The notes under the pieces were generated by a model. It did no database searches. It was not told the DNA's origin and worked only from the letters and a program-made list of their open reading frames with translations. From Paenarthrobacter aurescens TC1 (GTDB lineage: Bacteria; Actinomycetota; Actinomycetes; Actinomycetales; Micrococcaceae), in assembly GCA_000014925.1 (NCBI GenBank), contig CP000476.1:186001-250000 (forward strand): a stretch of DNA of 64,000 nucleotides. Direction: 5' to 3'. A program made the position numbers and the translations under genes. Below are positions 2,483-23,440 of the stretch, piece by piece (the stretch's first letter is position 1; the number at the start of each line of letters is the position of its first letter).

Positions 2483-2800
2483 TTCCAAGATCGTTTCGAT
2501 TGTTCTCTACACGACACGACGCAAGGTCACTGGCCCGGAGATCACGTTTCTTCCCACTGGTCCAGTCTGTTTGGCCAGCCAGCCGCGTAGATAGCTGTAC
2601 TTGTGCGCCTGAAATACACCTCAAGCTGACAGAGTCGAGGTCAGTTGTTGACTTCCTTGTAGGACAAGTCCTAGAAACTCACCTCACAGGCAGAAAGTTG
2701 GGGGGCGGGGCAACGCCGTCCCACTTCCAAAAAAGTGCGACAGGCTTGTTGTGCCAAATTTCGGGCAGGGTTCAAGGGCGTGTTGGAGTTCCAGTTTCTG
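2483..2800. other. Intergenic region holding a promoter/resolvase-site-like sequence
   Basis: Apart from the repeat listed at 2648-2682, I see no gene here. It separates the left-hand debris from the convergent end of the GntR regulator gene. Confidence 0.5.
2648..2682 (+). repeat. Promoter/res-like repeat, left copy
   Basis: TTGACTTCC starts a segment containing the palindrome CTTGTAGGACAAG (2656-2668) and then TCCTAGAA. It has the same layout as the sequence upstream of the intact resolvase (56523-56557): TTGACT, about 17 bases, then TAGAA(A/C). An 18-base core TTGTAGGACAAGYCCTAG recurs at 13203-13220 on the other side of the sulfur cluster. Confidence 0.55.
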
Positions 2801-3484
2801 TCATGATGCGGTTTTGGCAGGTCGCGGGCCTGCTTCGACCAAATCCGAGAGGATCTGCTCGGCATCCTGGAGGTAGCTGTGAAGAGCCATTCCGGCTGCT
2901 GCCCGGGAGCCGGCCAGCATCAGATCGCAGATTTCGCGGTCGCGCGCGGCAAAGGGCTTCTGGAATTGTTCCTGGTTGATGGCGGGGGCGAAGGCCAAGC
3001 GGATCTGCGCAACGATGGGGACGAAAGTGGCATCCAGCCGCGGGCTGCCGAGAGTGCTGACGATGGCCTGATGAAACCGCAACCCGGCGGTGGCGACGCC
3101 TTCCCAATCGTCGGCCGAGCTGGCCTGGCCAACGGCGTAAGCTGCCTGCCGCAGTCGAGCTAGCGAGTCGGGGCTGGCCAGGGCGCTTTCCTCAATCGCC
3201 TTCAGTTCGATTGTTCTGCGGACGAGGTAGATGTCGTGGATGTCTTCAGTTGACATCATTTTGACGACCGCACCCTTGTGGCGCTCGATGTCGAGAAGGT
3301 TTTCCCAGGCGAGCCTGCGGAAAGCCTCACGAAGGGTATTCCGGGATACGCCTAGTTCTTCAGCCACCACGACCTCCCGCACCGCCGTTCCGGGAGGAAG
3401 GGCTCCGGTGACAATCCGTTCACGAAGGGTCGAAGCCGCCTTTTCGGCCGCCCCGGCGCTGACTGTTCCTGTGCCTGCATTCAT
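2801..3484 (-). CDS. GntR-family transcriptional regulator with FCD domain
   Basis: The 227-residue protein has an N-terminal winged helix (about residues 15-80, with GALPPG, VAEELGVSRNTLREAFRRL) and an all-helical C-terminal domain (about 90-215) of the FCD type that binds small carboxylates or amino acids, often with a metal. It is divergent from the creatinase-like gene starting at 3741. The 256-bp intergenic region holds two TGTTGAACAA sites, so it most likely represses the adjacent catabolic operon until the substrate or an intermediate is present. The ATG at 3482-3484 is taken as start. Confidence 0.9.
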   Translation of the reverse strand: MNAGTGTVSAGAAEKAASTLRERIVTGALPPGTAVREVVVAEELGVSRNTLREAFRRLAWENLLDIERHKGAVVKMMSTEDIHDIYLVRRTIELKAIEESALASPDSLARLRQAAYAVGQASSADDWEGVATAGLRFHQAIVSTLGSPRLDATFVPIVAQIRLAFAPAINQEQFQKPFAARDREICDLMLAGSRAAAGMALHSYLQDAEQILSDLVEAGPRPAKTAS

Positions 3485-3504
3485 TCCTGAATCTTACCGG
3501 CTGA

Positions 3505-3514
3505 TGTTGAACAA
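3505..3514. promoter_or_regulatory. Candidate GntR operator, site 1
   Basis: TGTTGAACAA, within the palindrome GTTG-AA-CAAC, lies 21 bp upstream of the gntR start. The same decamer recurs 84 bp away at 3589-3598. FCD-type GntR proteins bind short palindromes with TTG/CAA arms. Confidence 0.5.
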
Positions 3515-3587
3515 CTGTGATATTTCGCCGCCAAAATATGGGATTTTTTCGTGAAATGAGGCAGGCTGGTCGATATACCTACAAAAA

Positions 3588-3598
3588 TTGTTGAACAA
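3588..3598. promoter_or_regulatory. Candidate GntR operator, site 2
   Basis: TTGTTGAACAA has palindromic TTGT/ACAA ends and the same TGTTGAACAA core as site 1. It sits between the divergent gntR and the creatinase-like gene, where a repressor could block both. Confidence 0.5.
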
Positions 3599-3740
3599 AC
3601 CTCTTGCTACGTGGGTGCGATGGATGCATGATTATCATCACGAAGCTAAGCCGGGAACGAGAGCGGTCATGCCGAAGATCAAGCGCCCACCGCTGCGTTC
3701 CCGTGAACATTTCGATCATTGCAAGAGCAAGGAGAGCACA

Positions 3741-4952
3741 TTGACAACGCAGAGTATTGACGCCCAGGCCCCGTCTACTGAGGGGCCGGTGCAAATCAAC
3801 TTCACGCGGGAAGAATTCGCAGGCCGCCAGCTCCGGGTCCGCGAAGAGCTTGCCCGCCGAGGCCTCGACGGGCTTCTGGTCTTCCGCATCGAGGACCAAC
3901 ACTGGCTGTGCGGACTCGACACCACAGGATTCACAATCTTCCATGCGATGTTTATTGGCGTAAACGGCGAGCTGACCCACCTGTCACGTTCTGCTGACTT
4001 GGCGAGCATTGCGTATTCGTCGCTCTGTGCAGATGTTCGACTCTGGGATGAGGCTTACGGAACCACCCGTGCGGCTGGTATCAAGGGCATGCTGAAGAGC
4101 CATGGAATGCAGGGGCGGCGGATTGGCATTCAGCTCGACACCTTCGGCATGTTGCCCGACCTTTATAACGAATTGCAGTCCACCCTCGATGGCTGGTGCG
4201 AGCTTGTCGAAGCCTCCGACATCGTGCGGGTTTTGCGCTTGGTGAAGAGCAAGCAGGAGCTGGTCTACATGCGCCGCGCCGGCCAGATTTTGTCCCTAGC
4301 GAATGATGCTGCCGTCAGCCTGACAGTTCCGGGCGCATTTGAAGGTGACATTGTCGCGGAATTCAACAGGAGTGTCCTTTCCAACGACGGCGACATTTGT
4401 TCAGAGCCGAACTGGCCGATGGGATCTGGGCAGAAGGCCTTGCTTGTCAGGCACGCGACAGGGCGCGGCTTCGTAGGTGAGAACGACCAAGTGACTTTCG
4501 AACCCGGTGCTGCTTACCGTCACTACAACGTCGCAAACATGTTCACGGTACTTACGGGCCCTAATGTGGACCAACGCCACCTCGATATGCACGCCGCGTG
4601 CATCGATGCACTATCTGAAGTTCAAGCGACCATCAGGCCCGGAAACACCTTTGGTGACCTCTTCGCCGCGCACAAACGCATACTTACCAAGCACGGTTAC
4701 GGGCACGCCATCCTCAGGGGATGCGGTTACCCCATGGGGGCCATGTGGCCTCCCACGTGGATGGAAAAGCCGATGATCGTCGAGAACGATCCACTCGTCC
4801 TTGCCGAGGACATGACCATCTTCACGCACATGATTCTCACCGACCAAGCAGCGGGGCTGACCATGTCCCTCGGCGAAACCGTAGCTGTGACAAGCAACGG
4901 CCCCGAGATACTCTCCGCGGTCAGCCGAACCCCGATCATCAAGGGAGTGTAG
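3741..4952 (+). CDS. Creatinase/ectoine-hydrolase-like M24-fold hydrolase
   Basis: The TTG at 3741 follows AAGGAG at 3729-3734 and gives a 403-residue protein; an open extension to 3588 lacks a good ribosome site. Residues about 25-150 form the creatinase N-terminal domain and about 170-395 the pita-bread M24 domain. Metal ligands of aminopeptidase P are replaced (EPG where DxG is expected, NVANMF where DxTR is expected), while a histidine near 238 and glutamates near 254 and 379 are kept. Metal-independent relatives are creatinase (creatine to sarcosine plus urea) and ectoine hydrolase EutD/DoeA. The partner creatininase-like gene starts five bases after its stop, so the two probably act in sequence. 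Exact substrate is unknown. Confidence 0.85.
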   Translation: MTTQSIDAQAPSTEGPVQINFTREEFAGRQLRVREELARRGLDGLLVFRIEDQHWLCGLDTTGFTIFHAMFIGVNGELTHLSRSADLASIAYSSLCADVRLWDEAYGTTRAAGIKGMLKSHGMQGRRIGIQLDTFGMLPDLYNELQSTLDGWCELVEASDIVRVLRLVKSKQELVYMRRAGQILSLANDAAVSLTVPGAFEGDIVAEFNRSVLSNDGDICSEPNWPMGSGQKALLVRHATGRGFVGENDQVTFEPGAAYRHYNVANMFTVLTGPNVDQRHLDMHAACIDALSEVQATIRPGNTFGDLFAAHKRILTKHGYGHAILRGCGYPMGAMWPPTWMEKPMIVENDPLVLAEDMTIFTHMILTDQAAGLTMSLGETVAVTSNGPEILSAVSRTPIIKGV

Positions 4953-4957
4953 GAGAC

Positions 4958-5803
4958 ATGAACACTTTAAACCTCCCGAGCGTGTGGCTGCAGGACCTCA
5001 CCTGGGAAGAAGTCGATGGACATTTAGCCTCGGATCAATTGATCCTTCTACCCTTTGGCAGCACGGAGCAGCACGGGCCGGCCGGGACACTGGGCATTGA
5101 TACGTTCGTTGCGACCGGCATCGTCGAAGACGCTGCAACCCGCATGGGCGCCTTGTGCGCACCTCCGATGTGGTTTGGCGACTCGCCGCATCACCTGGCA
5201 TTTCCTGGAACCGTCAGCCTTAAGACCGAAACCCTCATGGCCGTTGTGCGGGACGTATGCACAAGCCTGGCCTCCCACGGTTTCCGGCAAATCATCCTGG
5301 TCAATGGGCACAAGGGTTCGAACCTGGCAGCACTAGGCTCCGCTGCCCGCGACCTGCATGAAAATCACCTGCCCGACGTCATGTTTGCAGTTGCAGACCC
5401 TCTGCACCTGGCACGAAACGCTGCTCCTCACATCAAAGAGACCAATGAACACCACGGCGGAGAACTGGAACTATCGCAGGTACATTTCCGCTACCCCGGC
5501 CAAGTCCGGATGGACCGGCTAACCGACGAAGGCGCGGATTTCGCAAGAGTATTCGGCGGCTTTGTTGGAGCAGATCTTTTCGGACCGGCCCCGGATGGCG
5601 TCGATGTCATCTGGTCCAGCCGAGAGCAGCGCGACTTTGCTCCAACCGGCAGCCTTAGCTCGTCCCTTGGCGTCGAATCAGACAAAGGACGCCGCTTCCA
5701 CGAGCACATCGTAGACCGCCTCTGCGAGGTCATCACATGGATGCGCGAAAACGACGGGCCACTCGCCGCAGCGAACGACTCACTCAAACAACAAATGAGC
5801 TGA
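4958..5803 (+). CDS. Creatininase-family amidohydrolase
   Basis: This 281-residue enzyme opens cyclic amides in known relatives (creatinine to creatine; also MftE in mycofactocin maturation). The dinuclear metal site is complete by eye: STEQHG near residue 33, LGIDT near 43, VNGHKGSN near 113 and EHHGGELE near 165. ATG 4958 follows AGGAG at 4951-4955. It is co-transcribed with the M24-like gene, which suggests ring opening and amidino or amide hydrolysis of one substrate. The sulfur-handling genes downstream make a sulfur-containing ring compound more likely than creatinine itself; that is inference. Confidence 0.88.
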   Translation: MNTLNLPSVWLQDLTWEEVDGHLASDQLILLPFGSTEQHGPAGTLGIDTFVATGIVEDAATRMGALCAPPMWFGDSPHHLAFPGTVSLKTETLMAVVRDVCTSLASHGFRQIILVNGHKGSNLAALGSAARDLHENHLPDVMFAVADPLHLARNAAPHIKETNEHHGGELELSQVHFRYPGQVRMDRLTDEGADFARVFGGFVGADLFGPAPDGVDVIWSSREQRDFAPTGSLSSSLGVESDKGRRFHEHIVDRLCEVITWMRENDGPLAAANDSLKQQMS

Positions 5804-6185
5804 CGTAAGCACGCCACACACCCTCGGTTCAAGACCGGCAGCAGCCAGCCTGTCAACTCCCCAGGTTCACTAACACGGACAGCCACATCCACATCGCTGT
5901 TTATCAAGAGACATTAGGCGCCTGCCGTCACCACCGTAAGCGGCAGGCCCGACAGCCGGCCCAGGAAGACTGCCACCCATAACCGTCCTCCAAGGCCCGA
6001 CTTCCCGGATGAACCAGGATTTATGGTGTTCATCCGCTTATCCCATGGCCGGACGCTGGACAAAGACGTTAGCGTCCCCGCCCAATAAGGCTTTCCGCCA
6101 CGGCGACCCCTCCGATTCCGACGATGACGCCGGAATCAAATTTCAACGAAAATACTCTTCGCAGAGTTTCACGTTAGGGATTCAT
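5804..6185. other. Intergenic region between creatininase-like gene and transporter
   Basis: It contains the hairpin at 5920-5948 and nothing else I recognise. An open frame upstream of ATG 6186 (from 6009) has no transporter-like character. Confidence 0.5.
5920..5948 (+). terminator. Hairpin after creatininase-like gene
   Basis: GCCTGCCG and CGGCAGGC form a perfect 8-bp stem around a 13-base loop. There is no U-tract, so termination is only likely from position. Confidence 0.4.
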
Positions 6186-7544
6186 ATGCCTACTCATACA
6201 GAATTATCCGGCCAATCAGTCCGCCGCAGCGTCAGCGCAGCCGCACTGGGTAACATCATCGAATGGTTCGACTACGGGATCTATAGCTTTGCCGCAGCCA
6301 CTATCGGAATGCACTTCTTCGACGTGCAGGAACCTTCCGTAGCGGCAGTATCATCCTTCGCCGTATTTGCGCTTTCATTCCTGATGAGGCCCATCGGCGG
6401 CGTCGTTATAGGCATCCTCGGAGACCGACGCGGCCGCCGGGACATGCTGATGCTGACAGTCGGTTTGATGACAGCCGCCACCGTCGTCATCGGCGTGCTG
6501 CCAACATACGCCCAGGTGGGCTTCCTTGCACCACTGCTCCTTACCCTTACACGCCTCATCCAGGGGTTCTCCGCAGGAGGCGAATACGGCGGGGCCAACA
6601 TCTTCATGGCCGAAATAGCAACTCCCAACCGCAGAGGCTTCTTCGCAAGCATCCTGGAATCAGGTGTGCTCGTGGGATACCTCGGAGGCGCCGGTATAGT
6701 GGTCGGCCTAATGTCTGCCATGTCTTCAGATGCGTGGCAGGACTGGGGCTGGAGGATCCCATTCATTGCTTCATTGCCGTTGGGTATTTTGGCCCTGCTC
6801 CTTCGACGGCACCTCGAGGACACCCCCGTATTTGAGAAAATGAAAGCGGCAGAAGAAATTGCGCACTCACCTTTGCGGGACACCTTCCGCCGGGCACCGA
6901 TGCCCTTGTTCGTGACGTTCCTGGTCGTCGCCTATGCAAACGGCGCCTACTACTTGGTTCTGACGTTCCTGCCCTCCTATGTGCAGACTGAAATTGGACT
7001 GTCAGCCAATGCCTCACTGATGCTGAGCATTGTGATCATGCTGATACTTCTGGTTACGATCCCTCTCTTCGGTCGTCTCGGAGACAGGGTTGGCCGACGC
7101 AAACTCATGACGCTTTCTGTCGTGGTTCACATCGTGGTGGCCATCCCCGCCGTCATGATGTTTAGTTCCGGTGACATTACGCTGGTCTACGTAGCGGCTG
7201 TTCTTCTTGGCATCGCAATGGCACCGCTGGCGTCGCAATATTCCGCGGCGCTCACGGTTCTTTTCCCTCGGTCAATCCGCTATACCGGATTCACTTTGTC
7301 GTTCAATGTCTCAACCGCGATATTCGGCGGGTCGGCACCCTTTATTGTGGGAAGCTTGCTTGCATCCACAGGAAATAACTTTGTCATTGCCTACTTCCTC
7401 ATTCTTGTTTCATTGTTGGCGCTCATTGGCATCAAATTACTGCCTGACAACACGGGCATGAGTGCCGATCACGATGTGAGCATGGGGGCACTTAGCCAAA
7501 GCAAGGTCCACGTGACGGAAGCAAGCGAAAAATCGCTGAATTAA
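6186..7544 (+). CDS. MFS transporter of the metabolite:H+ symporter (MHS) type
   Basis: From ATG 6186 the protein is 452 residues with about twelve hydrophobic segments. It opens with ALGNIIEWFDYGIYSFAAATIG, the usual MHS first helix (ProP, KgtP, ShiA relatives), and has the cytoplasmic loop motifs GDRRGRRDMLML near residue 82 and GRLGDRVGRRKLM near 300. GGEYGG appears in the fourth or fifth helix. Such proteins import betaines, organic acids or amino-acid-like compounds with protons. It lies between the two halves of the cluster and is the obvious importer of the starting compound. A strong terminator follows. Confidence 0.88.
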   Translation: MPTHTELSGQSVRRSVSAAALGNIIEWFDYGIYSFAAATIGMHFFDVQEPSVAAVSSFAVFALSFLMRPIGGVVIGILGDRRGRRDMLMLTVGLMTAATVVIGVLPTYAQVGFLAPLLLTLTRLIQGFSAGGEYGGANIFMAEIATPNRRGFFASILESGVLVGYLGGAGIVVGLMSAMSSDAWQDWGWRIPFIASLPLGILALLLRRHLEDTPVFEKMKAAEEIAHSPLRDTFRRAPMPLFVTFLVVAYANGAYYLVLTFLPSYVQTEIGLSANASLMLSIVIMLILLVTIPLFGRLGDRVGRRKLMTLSVVVHIVVAIPAVMMFSSGDITLVYVAAVLLGIAMAPLASQYSAALTVLFPRSIRYTGFTLSFNVSTAIFGGSAPFIVGSLLASTGNNFVIAYFLILVSLLALIGIKLLPDNTGMSADHDVSMGALSQSKVHVTEASEKSLN

Positions 7545-7554
7545 GCGGTCACCC

Positions 7555-7615
7555 CCAGAGGTCCCTCGATGAACCCGCCAAGTAATCAGACAGGGACCTC
7601 TGGAAACACGTTTTT
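7555..7615 (+). terminator. Rho-independent terminator after MFS gene
   Basis: Twelve-base arms CCAGAGGTCCCT (7555-7566) and AGGGACCTCTGG (7592-7603) pair perfectly around 25 bases, followed by TTTTT at 7611-7615. Confidence 0.75.
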
Positions 7616-7786
7616 CTATTACCGGCTCCAGCTCCAACCCGCACGTCTCCCGCCGCTGGCACACCGGCCCGCGACGTACCGGGCAGTCTGAGTCTTCGTT
7701 CACACACCCCGCAAGGCTCCTCTGGTGAGGTCACCAGATGGCCATCTTTTTTACGCCGTTCGGCCCCAACTGAGTCAGGAGGCTCC

Positions 7787-8914
7787 GTGTCTACCAGCAC
7801 AGCAATGGATTCAACAGTCGACCGTGAGGAAGACATCGACCGTTACGACCCTTCATACCGACAATGGATTGCCGAGGCGGTTCGTAAGATCAGGGCCGAA
7901 GCAAATCGGTCCTCGGATACCAATTTGATTTCCGTTCCGCTGCCGGCCGAGTGGGGTATCGATCTATACCTCAAGGACGAGTCAACCCACCCAACTGGAT
8001 CCTTGAAGCATCGATTGGCCAGGTCCCTGTTTCTTTATGCTTTGTGCAACGGATGGATCAAGCCCGGCCGTCCGGTGATTGAAGCTTCCAGCGGGTCAAC
8101 GGCCATTTCCGAGGCCTATTTCTCACGCCTCATCGGTGTGCCCTTCATAGCGGTCGTGGCCCGGTCCACCAGTGTGCAGAAGGTCAAACTCATCGAGTCC
8201 CACGGCGGGCAGTGCCATCTCGTCGAAAACCCCGGCGAAGTGTATGACGTTGCGGCAGCAGTTGCCGAGCGAACCGGCGGTCACTACATGGACCAATTCA
8301 CCTATGCCGAGCGGGCCACGGACTGGAGAGGAACGAACAATATTGCAGAGTCGATTTTCAGGCAGATGGCGCAGGAGCGACATCCTGAGCCTGCCTGGAT
8401 CGTCGCAACCGCAGGTACCGGCGGTACCTCGGCTACCTTGGCTCGTTACATCCGATATGCCGGAAAGTCCACGGGAATTTGCATCGCCGATCCCGAAAAT
8501 TCTGCATTCTTTCCGTCCTGGAAGGACCAAGACCCCACCGTCACCACGGCAATCGGCTCCCGCATCGAAGGCATCGGCCGCCAACGCGTCGAAGGCAGCT
8601 TTATCGGTTCCGCTATCGACCGAATGATGCTCGTGCCTGACGCCGCCGCGGTGGCTTCCATACGCCACTTGTCAGAATTGCTGGGCCGCCGCACCGGCGC
8701 TTCTACCGGGACCGGACTGTGGTCAGCATTCCGGATAATTTCTGAGATGGTCACCGCGGGGAAGCATGGAAGCGTTGTTTCACTGATCTGCGATGCCGGG
8801 GACCGATACCTCGACAAGTACTACTCAGACGACTGGCTCGCTAAAAACAACCTCCACGTCGAACCCTATTACCACCGCCTGGAATCGTTCATGCGCACAG
8901 GCACCCTCTCCTGA
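7787..8914 (+). CDS. cds1: Cds1-type PLP-dependent L-cysteine desulfhydrase
   Basis: GTG 7787 follows AGGAGG at 7778-7783; product 375 residues. It has the fold-type II PLP layout of the cysteine synthase family: [17 protein letters not shown] (Schiff-base lysine near residue 75), [13 protein letters not shown] and [12 protein letters not shown] (phosphate loop near 212). By recall it is close throughout to the M. tuberculosis enzyme Rv3684, including [16 protein letters not shown] and SRIEGIGR. Cds1 cleaves cysteine to H2S, ammonia and pyruvate by way of 2-aminoacrylate. The next genes encode an imine deaminase and sulfide oxidation enzymes, which supports this over synthesis of cysteine. 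Confidence 0.9.
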
Positions 8915-8955
8915 CAAACACCAATCTCATAACCCCATAAGAAACGAGATACGCA

Positions 8956-9441
8956 ATGAACTCAGCCGCAGCAGATGTGGACTCTCACTCACCAGAAGAA
9001 CGTCTGGCCAACCTTGGCGTCAATCTTCCGCCGGCACCGCAACCCGTTGCCGTTTACGTGCCAGCCGTACGTAGCGGGAACCTGATCTACAGTTCAGGGC
9101 AGTTGCCGATCGTAGACGGAACCGTAGCGCACCCAGGAAAAGTTGGCGCAGATGTGACTCTGGAACAGGCGCAAGAGGCCGCGCGTCTGTGCGCGCTGAA
9201 CGCACTGGCCGCCATTCGCCCACTCGCCGGAGACCTTAGCGCCATCAAGCGCGTCGTAAAAGTTGTCGGTTTCGTCGCCAGCACTGCTGACTTCACGAGC
9301 CAACCCAGTGTTATCAACGGGGCCAGCCAGCTGCTCGGGGACGTTTTCGGAGCCAGCGGTGAGCATGCACGAAGCGCTGTGGGCGTCGCGGCCCTACCGC
9401 TGGATGCACCAGTAGAAATTGAAATCGTCGTGGAAGTTTAA
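8956..9441 (+). CDS. RidA-family enamine/imine deaminase
   Basis: The 161-residue protein is a YjgF/YER057c/UK114 family member: GNLIYSSGQLPIVDGT near residue 38, and HARSAVGVAALPLDAPVEIE near 137 with the arginine that holds the substrate carboxylate. RidA proteins hydrolyse reactive 2-aminoacrylate and related imines. Placed 41 bases after the cysteine desulfhydrase, whose chemistry releases exactly that intermediate, it probably speeds its conversion to pyruvate and protects PLP enzymes. At 161 residues it is longer than the common 125-130, as in the larger RidA subgroup. Confidence 0.9.
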   Translation: MNSAAADVDSHSPEERLANLGVNLPPAPQPVAVYVPAVRSGNLIYSSGQLPIVDGTVAHPGKVGADVTLEQAQEAARLCALNALAAIRPLAGDLSAIKRVVKVVGFVASTADFTSQPSVINGASQLLGDVFGASGEHARSAVGVAALPLDAPVEIEIVVEV

Positions 9442-9495
9442 GTCCTCCTGACGATTCTGTTCCCTTCGTAAATTCGACCGAGGAGTTGTAAATAT

Positions 9496-10692
9496 ATGGC
9501 CATCCATCATCGGATCCTCATCATCGGTGGCGGTAATGCAGGACTTAGCGTGGCAGCGCGCCTCCGGAACCAGGGCCAGAGTGACGTTGGGATCATTGAA
9601 CCGGGTGAACAGCACTACTACCAGCCGTTGTGGACCCTAGTCGGTGGCGGCTGCGCGGACGCAAACGAGTCTGTGCGGCCACAGGCGTCAGTGACGCCGC
9701 AGGGGGTTGCCTGGATCAAGGACGCTGCCACTGGCATCGACCCGGAGTCGCGCAGCGTTTCCCTTGCCTCCGGAGCAACCATCAGTTACGACTACGTGGT
9801 GGTGTGCCCGGGGATACAGCTTGACTGGGACAGGATTCCGGGCATGGATAAAGCCCTTGAAACGCCGCAAGCGTCCAGTAATTACCGTTTCGACCTGGCC
9901 CCCAAAACCTGGGACATGATCCGCAGCCTGCGGTCCGGAACAGCGGTTTTCACGATGCCCGCCGGGCCGATCAAATGTGGTGGCGCACCCCAGAAAATCG
10001 CCTATCTGGCTGCCGACTACTGGCGGCAGCAGGGAGTCCTAAACGACATCCGCATCGTACTTGTGCTCCCCTCCCCCGGCATGTTCGGAGTAAAGGCGTT
10101 CGCCGACGAGCTGGAAAAAGTCGTAGCCCGGTACGGCATCGAAGTACATAAGAACAGTGAAATGACCGAGATCGACCCCGTCACCCAAACGGTGACGGTC
10201 GAGAACCATGCCACTGGATCCAGCGAAGATCTTTATTACGATTTCCTGCACACAGTCCCACCTCAGTCCGCCCCGGACTGGCTCAAGAAAACTCCCCTGG
10301 CCGACCCCGAGGACCCGCTCGGATATGTACAGGTGGACAAGCACACACTCCAGCACACGCGCTACCCGAACGTCTTCGCCCTAGGCGACGCCGGATCCAC
10401 ACCCAATTCCAAAACCGGCGCAGCCATCCGCAAACAGGCTCCCGTCCTGGTGCGAAACCTCCTGTCCGTCATGGACTCAGCCCAGCCCTCCGCCAGTTAC
10501 GGCGGTTACGCTTCCTGCCCGCTGACCACCGCGAGAAACAAAATGCTACTGGCCGAATTCGACTACAGCATGCAACCTGCAACCAGCATCCCGCTGATCA
10601 ATACCACCCATGAACGCCTGGATATGTGGCTGCTCAAGCGCTATGGACTGCCCTTCATGTACTGGAACCTCATCCTCAAAGGCCGGGCCTGA
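9496..10692 (+). CDS. sqr: Sulfide:quinone oxidoreductase-type flavoprotein
   Basis: The 398-residue protein begins with an FAD Rossmann motif (ILIIGGGNAGLSVAARL, residues 6-22) and has a second site near FALGDAGSTPNSKTGAAIRKQ. Two cysteines match SQR redox positions: IKCGGAPQK near 159 and YASCPLTT near 336. SQR oxidises H2S to persulfide or polysulfide and passes electrons to menaquinone at the membrane. Between a cysteine desulfhydrase and a persulfide dioxygenase it detoxifies and exploits the sulfide made upstream. An ATG with a modest AGGAG-like site (9481-9486) is used. Confidence 0.9.
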   Translation: MAIHHRILIIGGGNAGLSVAARLRNQGQSDVGIIEPGEQHYYQPLWTLVGGGCADANESVRPQASVTPQGVAWIKDAATGIDPESRSVSLASGATISYDYVVVCPGIQLDWDRIPGMDKALETPQASSNYRFDLAPKTWDMIRSLRSGTAVFTMPAGPIKCGGAPQKIAYLAADYWRQQGVLNDIRIVLVLPSPGMFGVKAFADELEKVVARYGIEVHKNSEMTEIDPVTQTVTVENHATGSSEDLYYDFLHTVPPQSAPDWLKKTPLADPEDPLGYVQVDKHTLQHTRYPNVFALGDAGSTPNSKTGAAIRKQAPVLVRNLLSVMDSAQPSASYGGYASCPLTTARNKMLLAEFDYSMQPATSIPLINTTHERLDMWLLKRYGLPFMYWNLILKGRA

Positions 10693-10722
10693 GAAGCGTC
10701 ACTAACCTAATTAGGAGAACTC

Positions 10723-12120
10723 ATGCTCATCGAGCGCATCTATGACGAGGACCTTGCCCAAGCCAGTTACGTGATCGGCTGTCAACGCACAGGTGAAGCA
10801 ATCGTTGTCGACCCTCGCCGGGACATCGCCGTTTATCAGACCGTAGCTGCCGCCAACGGCATGAAGATCATAGCCGTGACGGAGACTCACATCCATGCCG
10901 ACTATCTGTCAGGCACCCGCGAGTTGGCCGCAGCGACCGGCGCCGCCATCTACGTCTCGGGCGAGGGCGGAACAGACTGGCAGTACGAATTCGACGGCAA
11001 GCGGCTTTTCGACGGCGGCACGATCACCATGGGCAACATCGGAGTCCACGCCCTCCACACCCCCGGCCACACCCCGGAGCACCTGTCCTTCCTGCTCACT
11101 GACGGGGCGTTCAGCGACCAGCCCGGCTACCTGCTTTCCGGCGACTTTGTGTTCGCCGGCGACCTGGGACGCCCAGATCTGTTGGACGAGGCAGCTGGTG
11201 GGGTCGATACACGCTTCAATAGTGCCAGACAGATGTTCACCAGCCTGCGGGACAAGTTCCTGACCTTGCCTGATCACATCCAGGTCCACCCTGGGCACGG
11301 TGCAGGCAGCGCCTGCGGCAAAGCCCTCGGTGCCGTCGCATCCACGACGGTCGGCTATGAACGGCTCTATGCCTGGTGGGGGCCATACCTCAGTGCCAAC
11401 GACGAAGAAGGTTTCATTAAGGCACTCCTGGACGGCCAGCCCGATGCACCCGCGTACTTCGGACGCATGAAGCGTCAGAATCGACAGGGACCGGCGCTGC
11501 TGGGTGAACGCATGCCCTTGGCTGAACTCGAGGTAGGGGCCGTAGCTGAGGACCTTGCCGCCGGCAACGTGACCTTCGTCGATACCCGCTCAAACACGCA
11601 AGTGCATGACAGGGGCATACATGACGCCCTGAACATCCCGGCAGGCAGGAGTACAGCAACCTACGCGGCATGGGCCCTGGACCCGGAGCGTGATGTCCGC
11701 CCTGTGGTGTTGCTGGCCAAGGGCCAGGAGATGGCACAGGAACTGTGGGATCACCTGGTCCGCGTCGGAATCGACAACCTTCAGGGGTACGTTACCGCCA
11801 TTGAGGGACTGCCGCTAAGCAGTCCCCGGCTGGTAAACCCCGAAGAGATTGAGGGCTTTGAGGCGTCATTGGTCCTGGACGTTCGCGCCAAAAACGAACA
11901 CACCGCCGGGCATATCCCCGGCTCACAGCAACTCCACGGCGGCCGCGTCCTCTGGAACCTGGACCAGTTGCCGGATCGCGGCCCAATCGTCACGTATTGC
12001 CAAAGTGGTGTGCGCAGCTCAGTAGTAGCCAGCACCTTGCGCCGCGAAGGCTACGACGTAGTGGAACTCAAGGGCAGCTACGCCGCCTGGGCAGCACGCG
12101 AATGTGCAAACAGGTTGTGA
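10723..12120 (+). CDS. Persulfide dioxygenase-rhodanese fusion
   Basis: A metallo-beta-lactamase domain (residues about 1-240) carries THIHADYLSG near 55, HTPGHTPEHLSF near 110 and VHPGHGAGSACG near 187, the ETHE1-like iron site. Two rhodanese domains follow (about 275-360 and 370-465). Only the second has the active-site loop CQSGVRS near residue 426; the first reads LLAKGQEM where the cysteine should be, so it is probably structural. The enzyme oxidises glutathione- or mycothiol-type persulfides to sulfite, and the rhodanese can form thiosulfate. ATG 10723 follows AGGAG at 10713-10717. Confidence 0.9.
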   Translation: MLIERIYDEDLAQASYVIGCQRTGEAIVVDPRRDIAVYQTVAAANGMKIIAVTETHIHADYLSGTRELAAATGAAIYVSGEGGTDWQYEFDGKRLFDGGTITMGNIGVHALHTPGHTPEHLSFLLTDGAFSDQPGYLLSGDFVFAGDLGRPDLLDEAAGGVDTRFNSARQMFTSLRDKFLTLPDHIQVHPGHGAGSACGKALGAVASTTVGYERLYAWWGPYLSANDEEGFIKALLDGQPDAPAYFGRMKRQNRQGPALLGERMPLAELEVGAVAEDLAAGNVTFVDTRSNTQVHDRGIHDALNIPAGRSTATYAAWALDPERDVRPVVLLAKGQEMAQELWDHLVRVGIDNLQGYVTAIEGLPLSSPRLVNPEEIEGFEASLVLDVRAKNEHTAGHIPGSQQLHGGRVLWNLDQLPDRGPIVTYCQSGVRSSVVASTLRREGYDVVELKGSYAAWAARECANRL

Positions 12121-12312
12121 CATCCGAAAGGACCAACCCGCAAACACTGACTTCGCCAGTCGAGGCCAAGAGTAGTAACCAACGCCCTCCTTAGGGCGCC
12201 TCATAAAGACAGGAGGCAGGTCACACCCACATCTCCAACGCGAACGATGCCAGGTAGGTGTGATCCTCCCGATCGACGGGACCGAACCCACACCGAAAGG
12301 CGACTCACACCG
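12121..12312. other. Leader between sulfur dioxygenase and exporter genes
   Basis: No gene seen. A weak GAAAGG at about 12295-12300 may serve the exporter start. Confidence 0.4.
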
Positions 12313-13074
12313 ATGATGGCCCCAATGACATTTGGCCTGCTAGTAGGAGGCCTGCTCGGCCTGGTCGGCGGAGGGGGATCCATTCTGGCCGTCCCCGCCC
12401 TGGTCTACGGGGTCGGCATGCCACTGACGGCAGCCATACCCAGCTCTCTCTTGGTCGTGGGCGCCTCCTCAGCTGTGGCGCTTCTTCCCCGTCTCCGCCA
12501 AGGTCTCAATTGGACCCTCGCCCTCATCATCGGCGCAACCGGTGGTATTACGGCCTATGCCGGCACCCTCGTGAACCGGATGCTGGACCAGAGAACACTC
12601 CTCGTGGTGTTCGCTGCGATCATGATTCTCGCAGGGATCAGAATGTTCATGCCCACCAAGTCCTCTACGGGAAGCTGCTATAACGCCGGCAGAAGCGTAC
12701 GTTGGCGCCGCTGTCTGCCCAAAGCTCTGGCCACGGGTGTCGTTGTCGGTTTTCTCACGGGTCTGCTCGGAGTCGGGGGCGGTTTCCTGATCGTCCCGGC
12801 CCTCACCCTGGTACTGGGCCTTCCCATGGCACTAGCCGTCGGCACGTCATTGGCGATCATCGTCATAAATTCCATGGGCGGGTTCATTTCCCACTTGGGC
12901 AACATTGACGTCGACTGGAAGAACACGGTCGTATTCACAGTGACGGCCATGGCTGCTTCCCTTCTTGCCGGACGGTTAGGAAGGTCTCTTCCAGACAAAG
13001 CCCTCAAACACGGATTCGCCATACTCGTCATGCTTGTCGCGGGCTACGTCATCGTTCAGGCCTTCATGGTCTGA
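12313..13074 (+). CDS. TauE/SafE-family sulfite or organosulfur exporter
   Basis: From ATG 12313 the protein is 253 residues with about eight membrane segments in two related halves. The glycine-rich motifs GLLVGGLLGLVGGGGSILAVPALVY (residues about 8-32) and GFLTGLLGVGGGFLIVPAL (about 147-165) are the paired family signatures. Relatives move sulfite, sulfoacetate or other sulfonates across the membrane. As the last gene of the cluster it would remove sulfite or thiosulfate made by the persulfide dioxygenase-rhodanese. Start choice is uncertain because the ribosome site is weak; ATG 12316 is an alternative. Confidence 0.88.
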   Translation: MMAPMTFGLLVGGLLGLVGGGGSILAVPALVYGVGMPLTAAIPSSLLVVGASSAVALLPRLRQGLNWTLALIIGATGGITAYAGTLVNRMLDQRTLLVVFAAIMILAGIRMFMPTKSSTGSCYNAGRSVRWRRCLPKALATGVVVGFLTGLLGVGGGFLIVPALTLVLGLPMALAVGTSLAIIVINSMGGFISHLGNIDVDWKNTVVFTVTAMAASLLAGRLGRSLPDKALKHGFAILVMLVAGYVIVQAFMV

Positions 13075-13084
13075 CACTGGATCT

Positions 13085-13115
13085 TGCTGGGCGGTGGAAC
13101 CCCCATCGCCCAGCA
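13085..13115 (+). terminator. Hairpin after TauE/SafE gene
   Basis: TGCTGGGCG and CGCCCAGCA form a 9-bp stem around 13 bases, 10 bases past the stop codon. No U-run follows. Confidence 0.45.
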
Positions 13116-13193
13116 GAATCGTCTGTCCCGGGGCGTTGAACTCTCCTGAGTCGGCATGGACCACACCCTAACTTGACGGCCATGGGCCAGATC

Positions 13194-13224
13194 TTGAATT
13201 CGTTGTAGGACAAGCCCTAGGACC
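13194..13224 (+). repeat. Promoter/res-like repeat, right copy
   Basis: TTGAATT is followed by the shared core TTGTAGGACAAGCCCTAG (13203-13220), which differs by one base from the copy at 2657-2674. It lies in the same orientation just past the end of the sulfur cluster and could also drive the small gene at 13356. Confidence 0.5.
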
Positions 13225-13355
13225 GGACGTCAAGTGCAGTGGCTTGGAGCCCACGGCTGCATTTGGCGAGCTAATTGCGGGCAGGTGAATCCGCCAGGAA
13301 ACCACATAGAAGTAATTGACCATTACACGACGGTCGACCTAGTAGAGGAGGACTT

Positions 13356-13646
13356 ATGTCCCAAAATTCGAATTTATTGGTAGCCAGCGCTGCCTTCCCG
13401 ATAATGGACCGCGACTATTTCCCGAGCCGGCCGCTTCCACTTGCCCTTGAAGTCACTGTGGAGGAGCCGGAGGGAAGGGACGAAAGGCTTAACCATGCGG
13501 TCAATATACTCATACCCGCCGCTTTGGAACGAAAGCAGGGAATCCTCGTTATCCAACGCGATTACGGCAAGTACATCGTCCGCGTCGATCAAGAAGTGCC
13601 ATGCGGGGTGACTCTCGAGTCCCGTCATCAAATCCTGCAAAGCTGA
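13356..13646 (+). CDS. Small orphan protein, family B (96 aa)
   Basis: A strong GAGGAGG ends six bases before ATG 13356. The product has no signal peptide or membrane segment. Its C-terminal half (GILVIQRDYGKYIVRVDQEVPCG with a glutamate after) resembles the protein at 33132-33365: same GxLV strand, aromatic-containing turn, VPxG and trailing E, with a DExL-x2-A helix before it. Function unknown; the fold looks like a small beta-rich domain. It is followed by insertion-element debris. Confidence 0.65.
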   Translation: MSQNSNLLVASAAFPIMDRDYFPSRPLPLALEVTVEEPEGRDERLNHAVNILIPAALERKQGILVIQRDYGKYIVRVDQEVPCGVTLESRHQILQS

Positions 13647-15000: not shown

Positions 15001-17031
<2,031 letters not shown>

Positions 17032-17076
17032 GTCTCTCCTTGGATTTTATAAGTAGGGAAGTAGGGCTGGCTGAGC

Positions 17077-17751
17077 TCAGGTCTGCAGGCTCGAGGCGGC
17101 GAACATTAGCGACATCGTGAGCGCGGAGCCGGCTTCAAAGGATCTTTCAAGAATGATGGGGAGGTGCATGGACGTCCTCGCCGTGCCGGGTGCCCTTACG
17201 GCCAGCCTGTCCATGACACGGTCCACTGGCAGCAGCCATACAAGGACGGCAGCGGCAAAGAGGAAAGCCAGGACTTGAGTTGCCGGCTGGGTCCACAGCG
17301 CGCTGAGGGGAGGAGCAAAGGGGGCATCGACGGTCAGCACGCCGCCAGTATGCGAAGCATGCCCACCAGCGTGACCAGGCAGAGTTGTGCGTTCAGAGGG
17401 GCCGGCCGCGTGGGGAAGTGCGAGCATAAAGACCATCGCGGCGAGCATGGCCGTATGGTAAAGGCAACTCAGCCGTCCGGCACGGCCGTGGCATCCGAGA
17501 GCAAATTCGCGCCGCGATACGGCCTGCAGGAGAAACCAAAAGGAAGCCGTGCCGAACAGCAGCAGCTGGGGTAGAAGCGGCAAGTTGACGTTGTGCCAAA
17601 CCATGTTCAGCATCCCAAGAGCCATGAGGGCCTGAAGAACGCAGTTCAATCGGGTGACCCATGAACTGCCCTGAAGTGCCTTGGTCAGGTGAAAGACTGT
17701 GCCGGCCGCGAGGATCATACTGACCGGGATGTTGAGGAATGGCGCCAGCAT
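17077..17751 (-). CDS. DUF5134-type membrane protein
   Basis: ATG 17749-17751 has AAGGAG upstream at good spacing; product 224 residues. About six hydrophobic segments are visible, with a histidine-rich loop (GHAGGHASH) near residue 125 between segments four and five. It looks like the DUF5134 group of actinobacterial integral membrane proteins of unknown function. The histidines and MVWHNVNLP suggest metal contact, which is only a guess. It lies downstream of the permease on the same strand, with a terminator between. Confidence 0.65.
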   Translation of the reverse strand: MLAPFLNIPVSMILAAGTVFHLTKALQGSSWVTRLNCVLQALMALGMLNMVWHNVNLPLLPQLLLFGTASFWFLLQAVSRREFALGCHGRAGRLSCLYHTAMLAAMVFMLALPHAAGPSERTTLPGHAGGHASHTGGVLTVDAPFAPPLSALWTQPATQVLAFLFAAAVLVWLLPVDRVMDRLAVRAPGTARTSMHLPIILERSFEAGSALTMSLMFAASSLQT

Positions 17752-17827
17752 GGGAATCTCCTTTGTTGGCACGACCGATGAACACGGCAGGGATGTTGTC
17801 AGTGGACAGAAGCGAGTGAATAAAGGT

Positions 17828-17862
17828 GTGGCCAGCCGCCAACGAATCTGGCGGCCGGCCAC
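17828..17862 (-). terminator. Terminator after ethanolamine-type permease
   Basis: Fourteen-base arms at 17828-17841 and 17849-17862 pair with a single G-U wobble around a 7-base loop, eight bases beyond the permease stop. Confidence 0.7.
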
Positions 17863-17869
17863 GGGCCGG

Positions 17870-19354
17870 TCAGGCTTTGGAGTCGAGTTCAGCCTCGGCT
17901 TGCTCGATTGCGGCGAATTCTTCCTCTGGTGCCTGTGCAACCAGTCGGTGGCGACTGTAGAAGGCGAAGTAGGCAATCATGACCGCGTAGGCTGCTGCTG
18001 CATAGAGAATCACGGACGGGTCTACGATGAATCCTGCGGTAAGGGCAGCTACGGCGAGGATGAGCGCGGTGGCAGAGGTGAAGATTCCGCCAGGTGTGCG
18101 GTAGGGCCGGTTCAGCTTGGGTTCCCGAACCCGAAGAATGATGTGTGAAAGCATCATCAGGATGTAGGAGATAGTGGCGCCGAAGACGGAGATGAGTATC
18201 AGCAGGTCACCGGACCCCGTCATGGAGAGCACAAAGCCGATGATTCCCGGGACGATCAGCGCAAGGAAGGGAACCTTCCGGCCATTTGTCAGCGACAGTA
18301 CCCGCGGAAGGTAACCTGCCCGGGATAGCGCGAACGTCTGCCTGGAGTAGGCGAAGGTGATGGCAAAGAAGCTAGATACCAGCCCTACAAGCCCGATGAC
18401 ATTGACGAACCAGCTCAGAGCCGTGGCTCCATTACCAATCAGGGGTGATTCAAGAGCATCAATGAGCGGGTTGCCGGAATCCTGGAGAGCAGCCGAACCG
18501 GCGCCGCCTGGTCCCAGCAGGAGGAGCGCTGCAGCCAGGACGGTCAGGATTACCACTCCCCCGATGAGCCCCTTCGGAACATCGAGTACCGGGTTACGGG
18601 CTTCTTCTGCAGCCAAGGGTACTCCCTCAACTGCCAGGAAGAACCACATCGCGTACGGCAAGGCTGCCCAGATTCCTACGATGCCGAACGGCAGGAAGGC
18701 GCTGGCACCGAAAGCATCTGTGGGCTCAATGTTGAGGAGGTTAGTTGCGTCGAAATACGGAAGCATCCCAATGGTCCATGCAATCAAGCCAATTACAGCG
18801 ACAACCGCGATGGCAAACATAAGTTTTAGTACTTGCTTGACGCCGTACAGGTGGAGTCCGATAAAAGCGGTGTAGAAGACAAAGTAGACAAGTGGGCCGC
18901 TGATGCCAAGCAGCGATTCCAGATAGGCGCCGATAAAAGTGACGACTGCTGCGGGAGCGAGCACAAATTCCAGCAAAATAGCAGTACCGGTGAGGAATCC
19001 TCCCCAAGGACCCATGGCGCGCCGGGCAAAACCGTAGCCTCCGCCGGCTGTAGGAATAATGGAGGACATTTCCGCCAGTGCAAAACACATGGTGGTGTAC
19101 ATGATTGCCATCAGTGCCGTGGCGATCACGAGGCCGCCCCAGCCGGCCTGGGCCAGGCCGAAGTTCCACCCTGCGTACTGACCAGCGATAACATAGCCGA
19201 CACCGAGTCCGACCAGCAGCACGGGACCTGCGGTGCCCCGGCGCAGCTGCCGGTTTTTCATGTAGTCATCGCTAACGTTCTGGTACTCGACTCCACGAGT
19301 TGCATGCCTGGTTGCGGGCTGCATCGGGGGTGCCGCCTGTGGTTCTTTTGACAT
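17870..19354 (-). CDS. Ethanolamine-permease-like APC transporter
   Basis: ATG 19352-19354 follows AGGAG; product 494 residues with about twelve membrane segments. The stretch GVGYVIAGQYAGWNFGLAQAGWGGL at the first helices and the EMSSIIPTAGGGYGFARRAMGPWGG motif match the ethanolamine permease (Eat) branch of the amino acid-polyamine-organocation family. It probably imports ethanolamine or another small primary amine for the copper amine oxidase encoded next upstream. A palindrome (19400-19415) lies 46 bases before the start. Confidence 0.85.
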   Translation of the reverse strand: MSKEPQAAPPMQPATRHATRGVEYQNVSDDYMKNRQLRRGTAGPVLLVGLGVGYVIAGQYAGWNFGLAQAGWGGLVIATALMAIMYTTMCFALAEMSSIIPTAGGGYGFARRAMGPWGGFLTGTAILLEFVLAPAAVVTFIGAYLESLLGISGPLVYFVFYTAFIGLHLYGVKQVLKLMFAIAVVAVIGLIAWTIGMLPYFDATNLLNIEPTDAFGASAFLPFGIVGIWAALPYAMWFFLAVEGVPLAAEEARNPVLDVPKGLIGGVVILTVLAAALLLLGPGGAGSAALQDSGNPLIDALESPLIGNGATALSWFVNVIGLVGLVSSFFAITFAYSRQTFALSRAGYLPRVLSLTNGRKVPFLALIVPGIIGFVLSMTGSGDLLILISVFGATISYILMMLSHIILRVREPKLNRPYRTPGGIFTSATALILAVAALTAGFIVDPSVILYAAAAYAVMIAYFAFYSRHRLVAQAPEEEFAAIEQAEAELDSKA

Positions 19355-19399
19355 CGTTTTCTCCTGGGTAATCGGCCCCAATCATGGCTCGATTGTTAA

Positions 19400-19415
19400 A
19401 TCACGTCATCGTGAT
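19400..19415. promoter_or_regulatory. Palindrome upstream of permease
   Basis: ATCACG and CGTGAT flank a four-base spacer. Position in the leader of the permease gene suggests an operator; the regulator is not identified. Confidence 0.35.
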
Positions 19416-19593
19416 GAGGGGGAGGAAGCTTGTTTTTTGGGCTTGAGTGTGGTGCGAGGTGGCCAAGGGGCTGGACGTCATCGCAGCTCGCCCGAAGAAC
19501 AGGACTCCTCCCCGGATGAGTCAGTTCAGGGAGCACGTGGGGATTAGACACTCGAAATGTTGAATTGGAGGATGTGTCTTTGGAACGAGGCCA

Positions 19594-19632
19594 CGGGAGC
19601 GCCGTCGCCGGATGCACGCTCGGCGCTTCCCG
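19594..19632 (-). terminator. Hairpin after amine oxidase
   Basis: CGGGAGCGCCG pairs with CGGCGCTTCCCG with one bulged base, 19 bases past the amine oxidase stop. No U-run. Confidence 0.4.
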
Positions 19633-19650
19633 GGCCCTAACTAAGGACTG

Positions 19651-21585
19651 TCAGTCCGTGGAGCAGCAATGCGGGGAATTGTTCGCTGGCGCGGCGGGGC
19701 GTGGCAGGTCCAGGGTCGGGTTCTGATCGAAGAACCCGTGGGGCTGGAGTATGAACCCGACGTGCTGGCGCGGCATGACGGGCCAGTCCTCAAGACGGAC
19801 CACGTGATGCATGCCGAAGGTGTACCAGACCACCAGGTCCTGATCAGTGATATCGCGGTTGGCCGCTGTCCAGGCTGGCAGGCCGTCCCCACCGATACTC
19901 TGGTTGGGGTATTCGCCTGCCGGAAAACGTTCTGTTCGGTCGTATGCGGTGACCCAGAGGTTGTTGCGTGCGAACTGGGCGCGCTGGCTTACGAAGGAGT
20001 CATTGTGTGCGGCCAGGGTGATAGCGTCGGTGGGCATGAGCCGGTAGGCGACGGGTTCATCGACGAGGTTCCGGCTGTCGTGATTGACGATCTTCCAGAA
20101 GCGGTGCTTGGAACTATCGGCCTTGCGGATGGCTTCCTGTTCTGTGCCCAGAAGTCGGTCCACGGTGTAGAAGCCGCTGAGGGTGGGGTTGTCCGCTGGG
20201 ATTTCGGTGTCCACTTCGTAGACCGCATTTTGCGGACCGTCGAGTTCAAAGTCCATGCGAACGTTGAAGATGTGCTGGTGGATCGGGGCGTAGAGGCCGT
20301 CATTGTTCAGCGTCTGGCCGTACTTGTTCTTTTCCCCTGCCTTCTGGCCCGCAGTTGAAAGAATGCCGGTGGCCTTCACCAGGAATTCAATGGTGCCGTC
20401 CAGGTACAGGTGCCAGTAGAAGCCGTACTCGTAGTTGGCCACAGTCGCGATGAACGAGATGACGAGCTTGCGGGAGCGGCGGACCTCCGCGGAGTTATTC
20501 CGGAAGTCGAAGTGCTTCCACATAATGCTGTCGTCTTCTTCGTGCATACAGACAGCGTTCTTGATTGTCATGGGGTTTCCGTGGCTGTCGGATACGATGC
20601 CGTCGAAGTATTGGATTTCGCCGAGGCAGTCGCAGCCAAGCTTCAGCGAGTTAGCCATAACGCCGATGTTGTATTCCCCGGCGTCAAACGCGTTCTTCTT
20701 TGACTGCACCGGCGAAGGGTCACCGTAGGGCACCACCATTTCAACAAGGGACGCCCTGTTGATGACGGAGCGGTCTTCGCCCTTGTCCCGGAACTTCATC
20801 TGGTGAAGCACGAGCCCTTCTCGCGGGGTGAAGCCCACTCGGAAAGACCAGTTGGCCCACTGGACGTGGTTTCCGGTCACTTTGAATGAGGGGCCCTCCG
20901 GCTGGGATATCTCGATCGGCTTGATGTCGGTGCGGGCAGGCCCGACGTGCTCGGGAAGATAGTTGCCGGTGGCCTTGGGCACCTCGACGAAGCCGTTGTC
21001 TTCAATTTCCACAACTTCTCCGGAATTGAGGTCGTAGATGACGACGAGGTTCTCAGCGGGATGCGCATAGGGGTTGTCGTTCGGGTCGAGCCTCGTGAAG
21101 ACGAGGCAGCGCATCAAGCGCCGGCCTTCGGCGTCGGTGCCGAAGTATCCTGCAGACCAGGGCTCAATACAAACGAGGTCAAGGTCGGTCATGCCACGGG
21201 CGGCAAGGACCTTCACAACGCGGGGGTCTTTTTTGCAGTTGATCTCGCACTCTTCGAATTCATCCAGCATGATCGGGGGCTGCGCGCCGTTGTCGAGTTC
21301 GGTCCATCGGGTGACGATGTTTGAATCAAGGTCAACCACAGCCTCATAGGCCAGGCCCGTTGCCCGGTTGATGAGGACAGAGTCCGCTTCCCGGCCAGAG
21401 ACAACTCCGCTGCGAAGTGCTTCCTTAGCCGGCTCGCGGAGCTCAACGCTGACAAATCGGAACGTGTCCGCAGCAGCGGGGCCTTCCCTCAGGACGGACA
21501 CCGCCTGGGATATTTCATCCCGGGAAAGCGGATCCAACGGATGGGCCGTCCCGACGAATGTCTGGGCTTCACTGTTGAGGGTCAT
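19651..21585 (-). CDS. Copper-containing primary-amine oxidase
   Basis: The 644-residue protein follows the Arthrobacter globiformis copper amine oxidases. It has FDAGEYNIG with the catalytic-base aspartate (near residue 305), NYEYGFYWHLYLDG whose first tyrosine becomes topaquinone (near 387), the copper histidines in HQHIFNVRMD (near 436), and the third in WYTFGMHHVVRLEDWP (near 595). It oxidises a primary amine to the aldehyde with release of ammonia and H2O2. The permease and aldehyde dehydrogenase nearby fit growth on ethylamine, ethanolamine or aromatic amines. An IS3 element sits 64 bases upstream of the start and may have cut its native promoter. Confidence 0.95.
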   Translation of the reverse strand: MTLNSEAQTFVGTAHPLDPLSRDEISQAVSVLREGPAAADTFRFVSVELREPAKEALRSGVVSGREADSVLINRATGLAYEAVVDLDSNIVTRWTELDNGAQPPIMLDEFEECEINCKKDPRVVKVLAARGMTDLDLVCIEPWSAGYFGTDAEGRRLMRCLVFTRLDPNDNPYAHPAENLVVIYDLNSGEVVEIEDNGFVEVPKATGNYLPEHVGPARTDIKPIEISQPEGPSFKVTGNHVQWANWSFRVGFTPREGLVLHQMKFRDKGEDRSVINRASLVEMVVPYGDPSPVQSKKNAFDAGEYNIGVMANSLKLGCDCLGEIQYFDGIVSDSHGNPMTIKNAVCMHEEDDSIMWKHFDFRNNSAEVRRSRKLVISFIATVANYEYGFYWHLYLDGTIEFLVKATGILSTAGQKAGEKNKYGQTLNNDGLYAPIHQHIFNVRMDFELDGPQNAVYEVDTEIPADNPTLSGFYTVDRLLGTEQEAIRKADSSKHRFWKIVNHDSRNLVDEPVAYRLMPTDAITLAAHNDSFVSQRAQFARNNLWVTAYDRTERFPAGEYPNQSIGGDGLPAWTAANRDITDQDLVVWYTFGMHHVVRLEDWPVMPRQHVGFILQPHGFFDQNPTLDLPRPAAPANNSPHCCSTD

Positions 21586-21664
21586 GTCATTCTCCTTGTT
21601 AAACTCTGGACCGATGGTCCGTGGGGTTGGGGAGCTGATTGGGCCCCCTTTAGCAGTCCAGCGG

Positions 21665-22812: not shown

Positions 22813-22933
22813 AACTAGTGAATTTCCTCCTGCGTCCATTCTCGGACACGAAACTCACATAGTCACCGGACTCCTACACGGGGACCCAACCAGAGCCGCA
22901 CATGTCTGTGCCGTCAGTCTTCTGTGGGCGGTG

Positions 22934-23362: not shown

Positions 23363-23440
23363 GATGGAATCCTCGAGACTGCCGTCAGCTCTGTGCTGGC
23401 AGCATCGGACCGATTGGGTTTCCGGGAGGCGTGCGGGTCC

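Follow-up and report, generated by a model that had tools for sequence, protein, structure and literature searches.

The gene set analyzed here lies on C3, a 300,725-bp contig of the three-contig, 5.23-Mb genome of Paenarthrobacter aurescens TC1. Our window, the whole stretch of DNA analyzed, covers 64,000 nucleotides (positions 186001 to 250000 of C3). The contig is probably a plasmid, given its size relative to the 4.6-Mb contig C1 and the DNA that it has in common with Arthrobacter and Paenarthrobacter plasmids, with matches mostly at 15 to 24 kb. Profile searches recovered all eight genes named in a preliminary description of this DNA, along with a divergent GntR regulator gene, at the following window positions.

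2801..3484, minus strand: GntR/FCD transcriptional regulator, divergent from the set (PF00392 and PF07729 above cutoff)
3505..3513, no strand: TGTTGAACA palindrome, candidate operator (exact match between the regulator and M24 genes)
3589..3597, no strand: second TGTTGAACA palindrome, candidate operator (exact match in the same interval)
3741..4952, plus strand: DoeA-like M24-fold hydrolase, 403 aa, TTG start (M24 and Creatinase_N profiles, structure comparison)
4958..5803, plus strand: creatininase-family metal-dependent amidohydrolase, 281 aa (PF02633, 204.3 bits; cutoff, 31.3)
about 6186..7544, plus strand: MHS-family (ProP-like) symporter, probable importer (TIGR00883 and ProP models)
7555..7603, plus strand: hairpin 3' of the importer gene, possible terminator (fold compared with shuffles)
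7787..8914, plus strand: Cds1-like PLP lyase, probable L-cysteine desulfhydrase (NF052478, 568.5 bits; trees)
8956..9441, plus strand: Rid imine hydrolase (PF14588, residue alignment)
9496..10692, plus strand: SQOR-like sulfide:quinone oxidoreductase (SQR; alignment, both cysteines kept)
10723..12120, plus strand: CstB-type persulfide dioxygenase with metallo-beta-lactamase (MBL) and rhodanese domains (alignments, motifs)
about 12313..13074, plus strand: TauE/SafE exporter (PF01925, 154.7 bits; cutoff, 32.6)

The preliminary description saw the eight genes as one run in a single direction. They do share a strand, but a single operon is doubtful. From the M24 gene to the TauE gene, the intergenic gaps are 5, 382, 242, 41, 54, 30, and 192 bases, and packing is tight only for the M24-creatininase pair and for the lyase-Rid-SQR-dioxygenase stretch. 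The importer-lyase interval contains a 12-bp stem followed by a T-run, with a fold of −26.7 kcal/mol (z, −2.7) that 3 of 200 shuffles equaled. This hairpin was missed by a simple terminator scan, in which terminator-like sites were no more frequent than expected (8 versus 9.6); a promoter scan found 1 promoter-like site versus 3.4 expected. Together, the hairpin after the importer gene and the gaps of 382, 242, and 192 bases suggest that the set is expressed as at least two transcripts. The GntR protein would probably act at the two exact TGTTGAACA copies between its own gene and the M24 gene; with one mismatch allowed, this motif occurs 11 times in the window, which is not above chance (9.2). 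A third copy is found inside a transporter gene just beyond the window and is left out of the candidate operators. An RNA switch was considered and rejected, with no Rfam match over positions 2700 to 13500 at E values up to 1 and none window-wide at gathering scores.

The downstream genes were described as a chain from cysteine to sulfite. Genes for this entire chain, leading to sulfite or thiosulfate, are present, and the key residues checked in the Rid protein, SQR, and the dioxygenase are intact in the alignments. As with mycobacterial Cds1, the Cds1 equivalog NF052478 is by far the best NCBIfam model for the lyase and matches its whole length; unlike that enzyme, the window lyase falls below the curated cutoff of 600, which a second, chromosomal Cds1-like enzyme of the same genome just reaches (600.1 bits). 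SQR aligns over its full length with human SQOR (359 bits), including both of the cysteines that we take to be redox active. The dioxygenase matches two MBL-rhodanese proteins, 3r2u (281 bits over 2-445; presumably Staphylococcus aureus CstB) and 3tp9 (366 bits), and has the CstB-type architecture, with motifs THIHAD, HTPGHT, and TYCQSG. The exporter clearly belongs to the TauE/SafE Pfam family. The Rid protein, which we assign provisionally to Rid1, keeps the conserved arginine (in HARSAVG, aligned with 3d01 and 9bk9). Rid proteins that keep this arginine (RidA and Rid1-3) are predicted imine hydrolases, and genes for RidA, and sometimes Rid1, cluster with D-cysteine desulfhydrase genes, according to the sections of the Rid family study that bear on these points (PMC4433059).

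The genome also encodes a second SQR (52% identity) and, on contig C2, a second CstB-type protein (73% identity). The M24 protein has only a remote, partial match elsewhere in the genome (21%), and another creatininase-family protein, also encoded on C2, shows 36% identity along part of its length. Since another Cds1-like enzyme, SQR, and CstB-type protein are already available and the two hydrolases have no closer counterparts, the plasmid set looks dedicated to a flux of its own.

The label given at first to the two hydrolases, creatinase/creatininase-like, is misleading. In structure comparisons, DoeA is the top match of the M24 protein, prolidases rank after it, and creatinase lies 7 Z units below DoeA; CGYPxG and PPxW stretches are common to the M24 protein and DoeA. 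Thus, the first enzyme resembles ectoine hydrolase (DoeA) more than creatinase. It scores 132.2 bits against the DoeA/EutD NCBIfam equivalog, whose cutoff is 613. Matches to the M24 protein include genes in Mycolicibacterium goodii, Nocardioides, and Pedococcus. The second enzyme is a bona fide member of the PF02633 superfamily with its conserved acidic and histidine residues; E36, H38, D47, H117, and E168, presumably metal-binding residues, are invariant across 30 alignment rows. Creatininase TIGR04448 is its best-scoring NCBIfam model, yet the score is 103.4 bits versus a cutoff of 235, and a Gly is aligned with creatininase Glu122. A creatininase mutant, E122Q, is named among the comparison entries. 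A creatinine or creatine pathway is therefore highly improbable. Only family names (PF02633 and PF01321) and the rank of TIGR04448 suggest it. As with creatininase plus creatinase, members of the two superfamilies are encoded next to each other, but neither protein satisfies the curated models or has the expected residues, creatinase ranks below DoeA in structure, and the lyase would be left unexplained. We reject this pathway on cutoffs, residues, and structure.

The hydrolases could instead be peptidase- or deacylase-like and release cysteine from a small peptide or from N-acyl or N-carbamoyl cysteine, with no ring opened. Both folds include peptide-bond hydrolases, prolidases come next after DoeA, and the creatininase-family protein is hit by an MftE peptidase model (96 bits). 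However, at the five positions of the 1pv9 prolidase that we take to be metal ligands, the M24 protein has E254, A265, Y330, H363, and E379; four of the five are replaced, E379 alone is kept, and the CGYPxG and PPxW stretches are as in DoeA. We regard this explanation as unlikely.

The likeness of the M24 protein to DoeA lends support to ring opening. DoeA opens a cyclic amidine to yield an N-acetyl amino acid, as stated in the relevant part of an ectoine degradation study (PMC5924519). As in ectoine degradation (DoeA/EutD with DoeB/EutE), a DoeA-fold hydrolase gene in the window lies upstream of an amide hydrolase gene, and ProP is the next best model for the importer (327 bits, after 391 bits to TIGR00883, just below the cutoff of 443). 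Unlike in ectoine degradation, a creatininase-family protein takes the place of DoeB, lyase and sulfide genes follow, and the M24 protein is far from the DoeA cutoff.

The first part of the set is conserved. On plasmid pRHL2 of Rhodococcus jostii RHA1, genes for an M24 protein, a creatininase, an MFS transporter, a PLP lyase, and RidA follow in the same order as in the window, with identities of 62, 74, 57, 73, and 65%, respectively. A LysR gene replaces the GntR gene upstream, an integrase gene comes after RidA, and SQR, dioxygenase, and TauE genes are absent beside this core. Because this five-gene order is found twice, we conclude that the arrangement exceeds chance. Genome searches added few further members. 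For the creatininase, the only match at 1e-40 among 394 genomes of the class was the window's own, and three of 395 family genomes matched at 1e-50 (the window's own and two from a sister clade); at 1e-100, there was one match among 381 genomes of another family, at coordinates that fit RHA1. The M24 protein at 1e-110 matched one of 396 genomes of the phylum, again the window's own, and an exact peptide-pattern scan of genome contigs gave one 44% relative.

In metagenomes, linkage was judged from identical longest-contig sizes in the protein-database match lists of different genes. The creatininase and M24 lists share sizes 1442, 2012, 7768, 16703, 33216, and 55661, i.e., six coincidences versus a mean of 1.1 and a maximum of 5 with shifted sizes; above 4 kb, four are shared versus 0.155 expected (maximum, 2). 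The creatininase and lyase lists share sizes 6275, 7768, and 16703, i.e., three versus 0.6 (maximum, 4) over all sizes and three versus 0.12 (maximum, 2) above 4 kb. Indirectly, these coincidences imply that two or three core genes are probably linked on metagenome contigs. The lists are incomplete: that for the creatininase has no row for the window or the RHA1 contig, though both carry the gene. Long contigs without a partner include 18052, 38325, 52280, and 110795 in the M24 list and 157847 in the creatininase list.

The eight genes as a whole are not supported as a conserved unit: RHA1 has only the first five there, and SQR-dioxygenase-TauE genes occur without the hydrolases. At one locus (L045), a lyase 70% identical to that in the window is beside SQR (71%), a dioxygenase (62%), and a TauE-like stretch; this locus has only the last part of the set. 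On two Rhodococcus plasmids, SQR and TauE genes occur with no hydrolase genes, in one case on either side of an MBL-fold gene, and DNA 86% identical to the dioxygenase gene is present on a Paenarthrobacter plasmid. L045 is the one locus with this sulfide part among 14 fetched around related lyases (4.6 to 18 kb), all of which lack M24 and creatininase genes. SQR, persulfide dioxygenase, and TauE genes are also found together in the S. aureus cst cluster. In the Bacillus licheniformis yrk-sqr-pdo cluster, which likewise includes a hypothetical TauE, SQR and PDO oxidize cysteine-derived sulfide, according to the portion of that study dealing with the cluster (PMC9918477). Unlike in such clusters, none of the genes of the window set was seen as a CstR-type sensor, and the module comes after a lyase and two hydrolases. 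L045, the two Rhodococcus plasmids, and the B. licheniformis cluster lead us to conclude that SQR, the CstB-type dioxygenase, and TauE form a separable module of a known type.

Alternatively, the lyase could act on another beta-substituted alanine, e.g., cysteate, and merely adjoin a sulfide protection island. Its score below the Cds1 cutoff would fit, as would the dioxygenase match on a Paenarthrobacter plasmid, the SQR and TauE genes standing alone on Rhodococcus plasmids, and three loci (L036 to L038) at which related lyases directly follow a PF03601 protein. We nevertheless consider this arrangement quite unlikely, given the related lyase beside SQR, dioxygenase, and TauE-like sequences at L045 and the two short gaps that separate the lyase from SQR in the window.

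Both families do have other jobs, to judge by their neighbors. At L036 to L038, phosphotransacetylase, aminotransferase, and permease genes are upstream of the lyase (families were scanned in L036 only), and the nearest chromosomal relatives of the lyase sit among other amino acid genes. Sister-clade creatininases from two genomes belonging to the same family have different company: CT_A_B, biotin carboxylase, and LamB/YcsF genes in one case (L016) and, in the other, an Nramp-type transporter plus a GntR gene that shares 40% identity with that of the window (L017). The preliminary description would have abandoned its pathway had the hydrolase genes occurred elsewhere only with unrelated genes. 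The outcome here is mixed: close relatives of the creatininase do appear beside M24 genes, but the two sister-clade members have other neighbors, with neither an M24 gene nor a lyase gene within 19.5 kb.

Phylogenetic trees suggest how the hydrolases and the lyase came together. All linked creatininases fall within a clade of 23 of the 49 rows (support, 81; 94 for 22 of those), 16 of which carry no linkage evidence. No single clade unites the linked lyases: forcing together the lyases of the window and RHA1 with P0243, P0244, and P0253, assigned as linked through shared contig sizes, costs 311 log-likelihood units (AU test, P = 1.9e-41, for groups picked after a first tree and hence not a blind test). 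Even the window lyase and P0253 alone resist grouping (AU test, P = 0.0012, likewise for a preselected group), though the creatininases linked to them share 95% identity. The RHA1 lyase, whose linkage is known from actual annotation, clusters with other lyases (6 rows; support, 99). On the creatininase tree, the reverse test gave a weaker result (P = 0.0375). Since the linked lyases are polyphyletic and the linked creatininases lie inside one clade, Cds1-type lyases seem to have joined the same hydrolase pair more than once. Lyase replacement within a single ancient cluster would leave the same pattern and would imply the same function. This apparent repeated joining is the best evidence that the product of the hydrolase pair is cysteine or a near analogue of it.

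To account for the genes observed, their conserved core, and the polyphyletic lyases, we propose steps whose chemistry rests on the enzyme families. On balance, we favor a plasmid-borne catabolic set in which cysteine or a close analogue is freed from an imported precursor and then desulfhydrated. The MHS symporter would import a sulfur compound containing cysteine or a close analogue. The DoeA-like hydrolase would open a ring or cut a C-N bond of amidine type. Hydrolysis of the remaining amide or carbamoyl bond by the creatininase-family enzyme would free cysteine; the two enzymes may act in either order. By family chemistry, the Cds1-like lyase would take sulfide off cysteine, leaving 2-aminoacrylate, whose hydrolysis to pyruvate and ammonia the Rid protein would aid. 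SQR would then make a persulfide, the CstB-type enzyme would convert it to sulfite or thiosulfate, and TauE would export sulfite.

Opening of a thiazoline-type ring fits the enzyme families, and such a ring is to us the most attractive precursor, although we name it tentatively. Equally speculative is a full sulfur counterpart of ectoine catabolism, in which the DoeA-like enzyme would open a 2-substituted (2-methyl-, 2-amino-, or aryl-) thiazoline-4-carboxylate to N-acyl or N-carbamoyl cysteine, the creatininase-family enzyme would free cysteine, and a repeatedly recruited Cds1-family lyase would feed sulfide to SQR and the CstB-type enzyme. The bacterial route from 2-aminothiazoline-4-carboxylate (ATC) to cysteine is alike in logic, with two hydrolytic steps from thiazoline to cysteine; its enzymes, AtcB and AtcC, are set apart by belonging to other families. 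No publication on this gene set was found in our searches of open-licence PMC papers. If our proposal is true, two orphan enzymes would be assigned to the first steps of a pathway through which soil actinobacteria release cysteine from a stable sulfur compound, and DoeA-type ring opening would extend beyond ectoine. The repeated pairing of the hydrolases with a desulfhydrase-type lyase may offer an annotation clue for both families.

Two sister-clade relatives of the creatininase-family amidohydrolase lie among other genes. One adjoins CT_A_B, biotin carboxylase, and LamB/YcsF genes (L016, 9791-15059); the other stands beside an Nramp-type transporter and a relative of the window's divergent GntR/FCD regulator gene, itself a GntR gene (L017, 7444-10546). 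A protein 44% identical to the creatininase-family amidohydrolase of the window was found on a short contig with a Micrarchaeota MAG label (L004, 1278-2045); this label may be a binning error.

Around one of the related Cds1-like lyases (L036, 1987-9835), a PF03601 membrane protein is encoded immediately 5' of the lyase, and genes for alanine racemase, class-III aminotransferase, phosphotransacetylase, and an amino-acid permease are located upstream; the gene order is identical at two other lyase loci, L037 and L038.

A match to a Paenarthrobacter ureafaciens plasmid starts at the persulfide dioxygenase gene (window 10723-12120) and consists of two joined pieces with 86% identity; merA and an MBL-fold gene are annotated in the matching region of the same plasmid record.

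Three other regions of the window were recorded:

643-1736, + strand: two overlapping frames, like parts of one protein
15001-25064, - strand: amine catabolism genes
37219-46269: glutamine-synthetase-like protein, cytochrome P450, ferredoxin reductase, flavodoxin-type reductase, and aldehyde dehydrogenase

The overlapping frames are possibly one frameshifted gene; the protein is perhaps OpcA. The amine catabolism region contains genes for acetate-CoA ligase, an ethanolamine permease, primary-amine oxidase, an IS3 transposase, and an ExaC-type aldehyde dehydrogenase; an ethanolamine permease is also present on Rhodococcus jostii RHA1 plasmid pRHL2, ∼5 kb ahead of that plasmid's core gene set. 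The P450-containing region resembles a pathway for amines that runs by glutamylation or through the P450.
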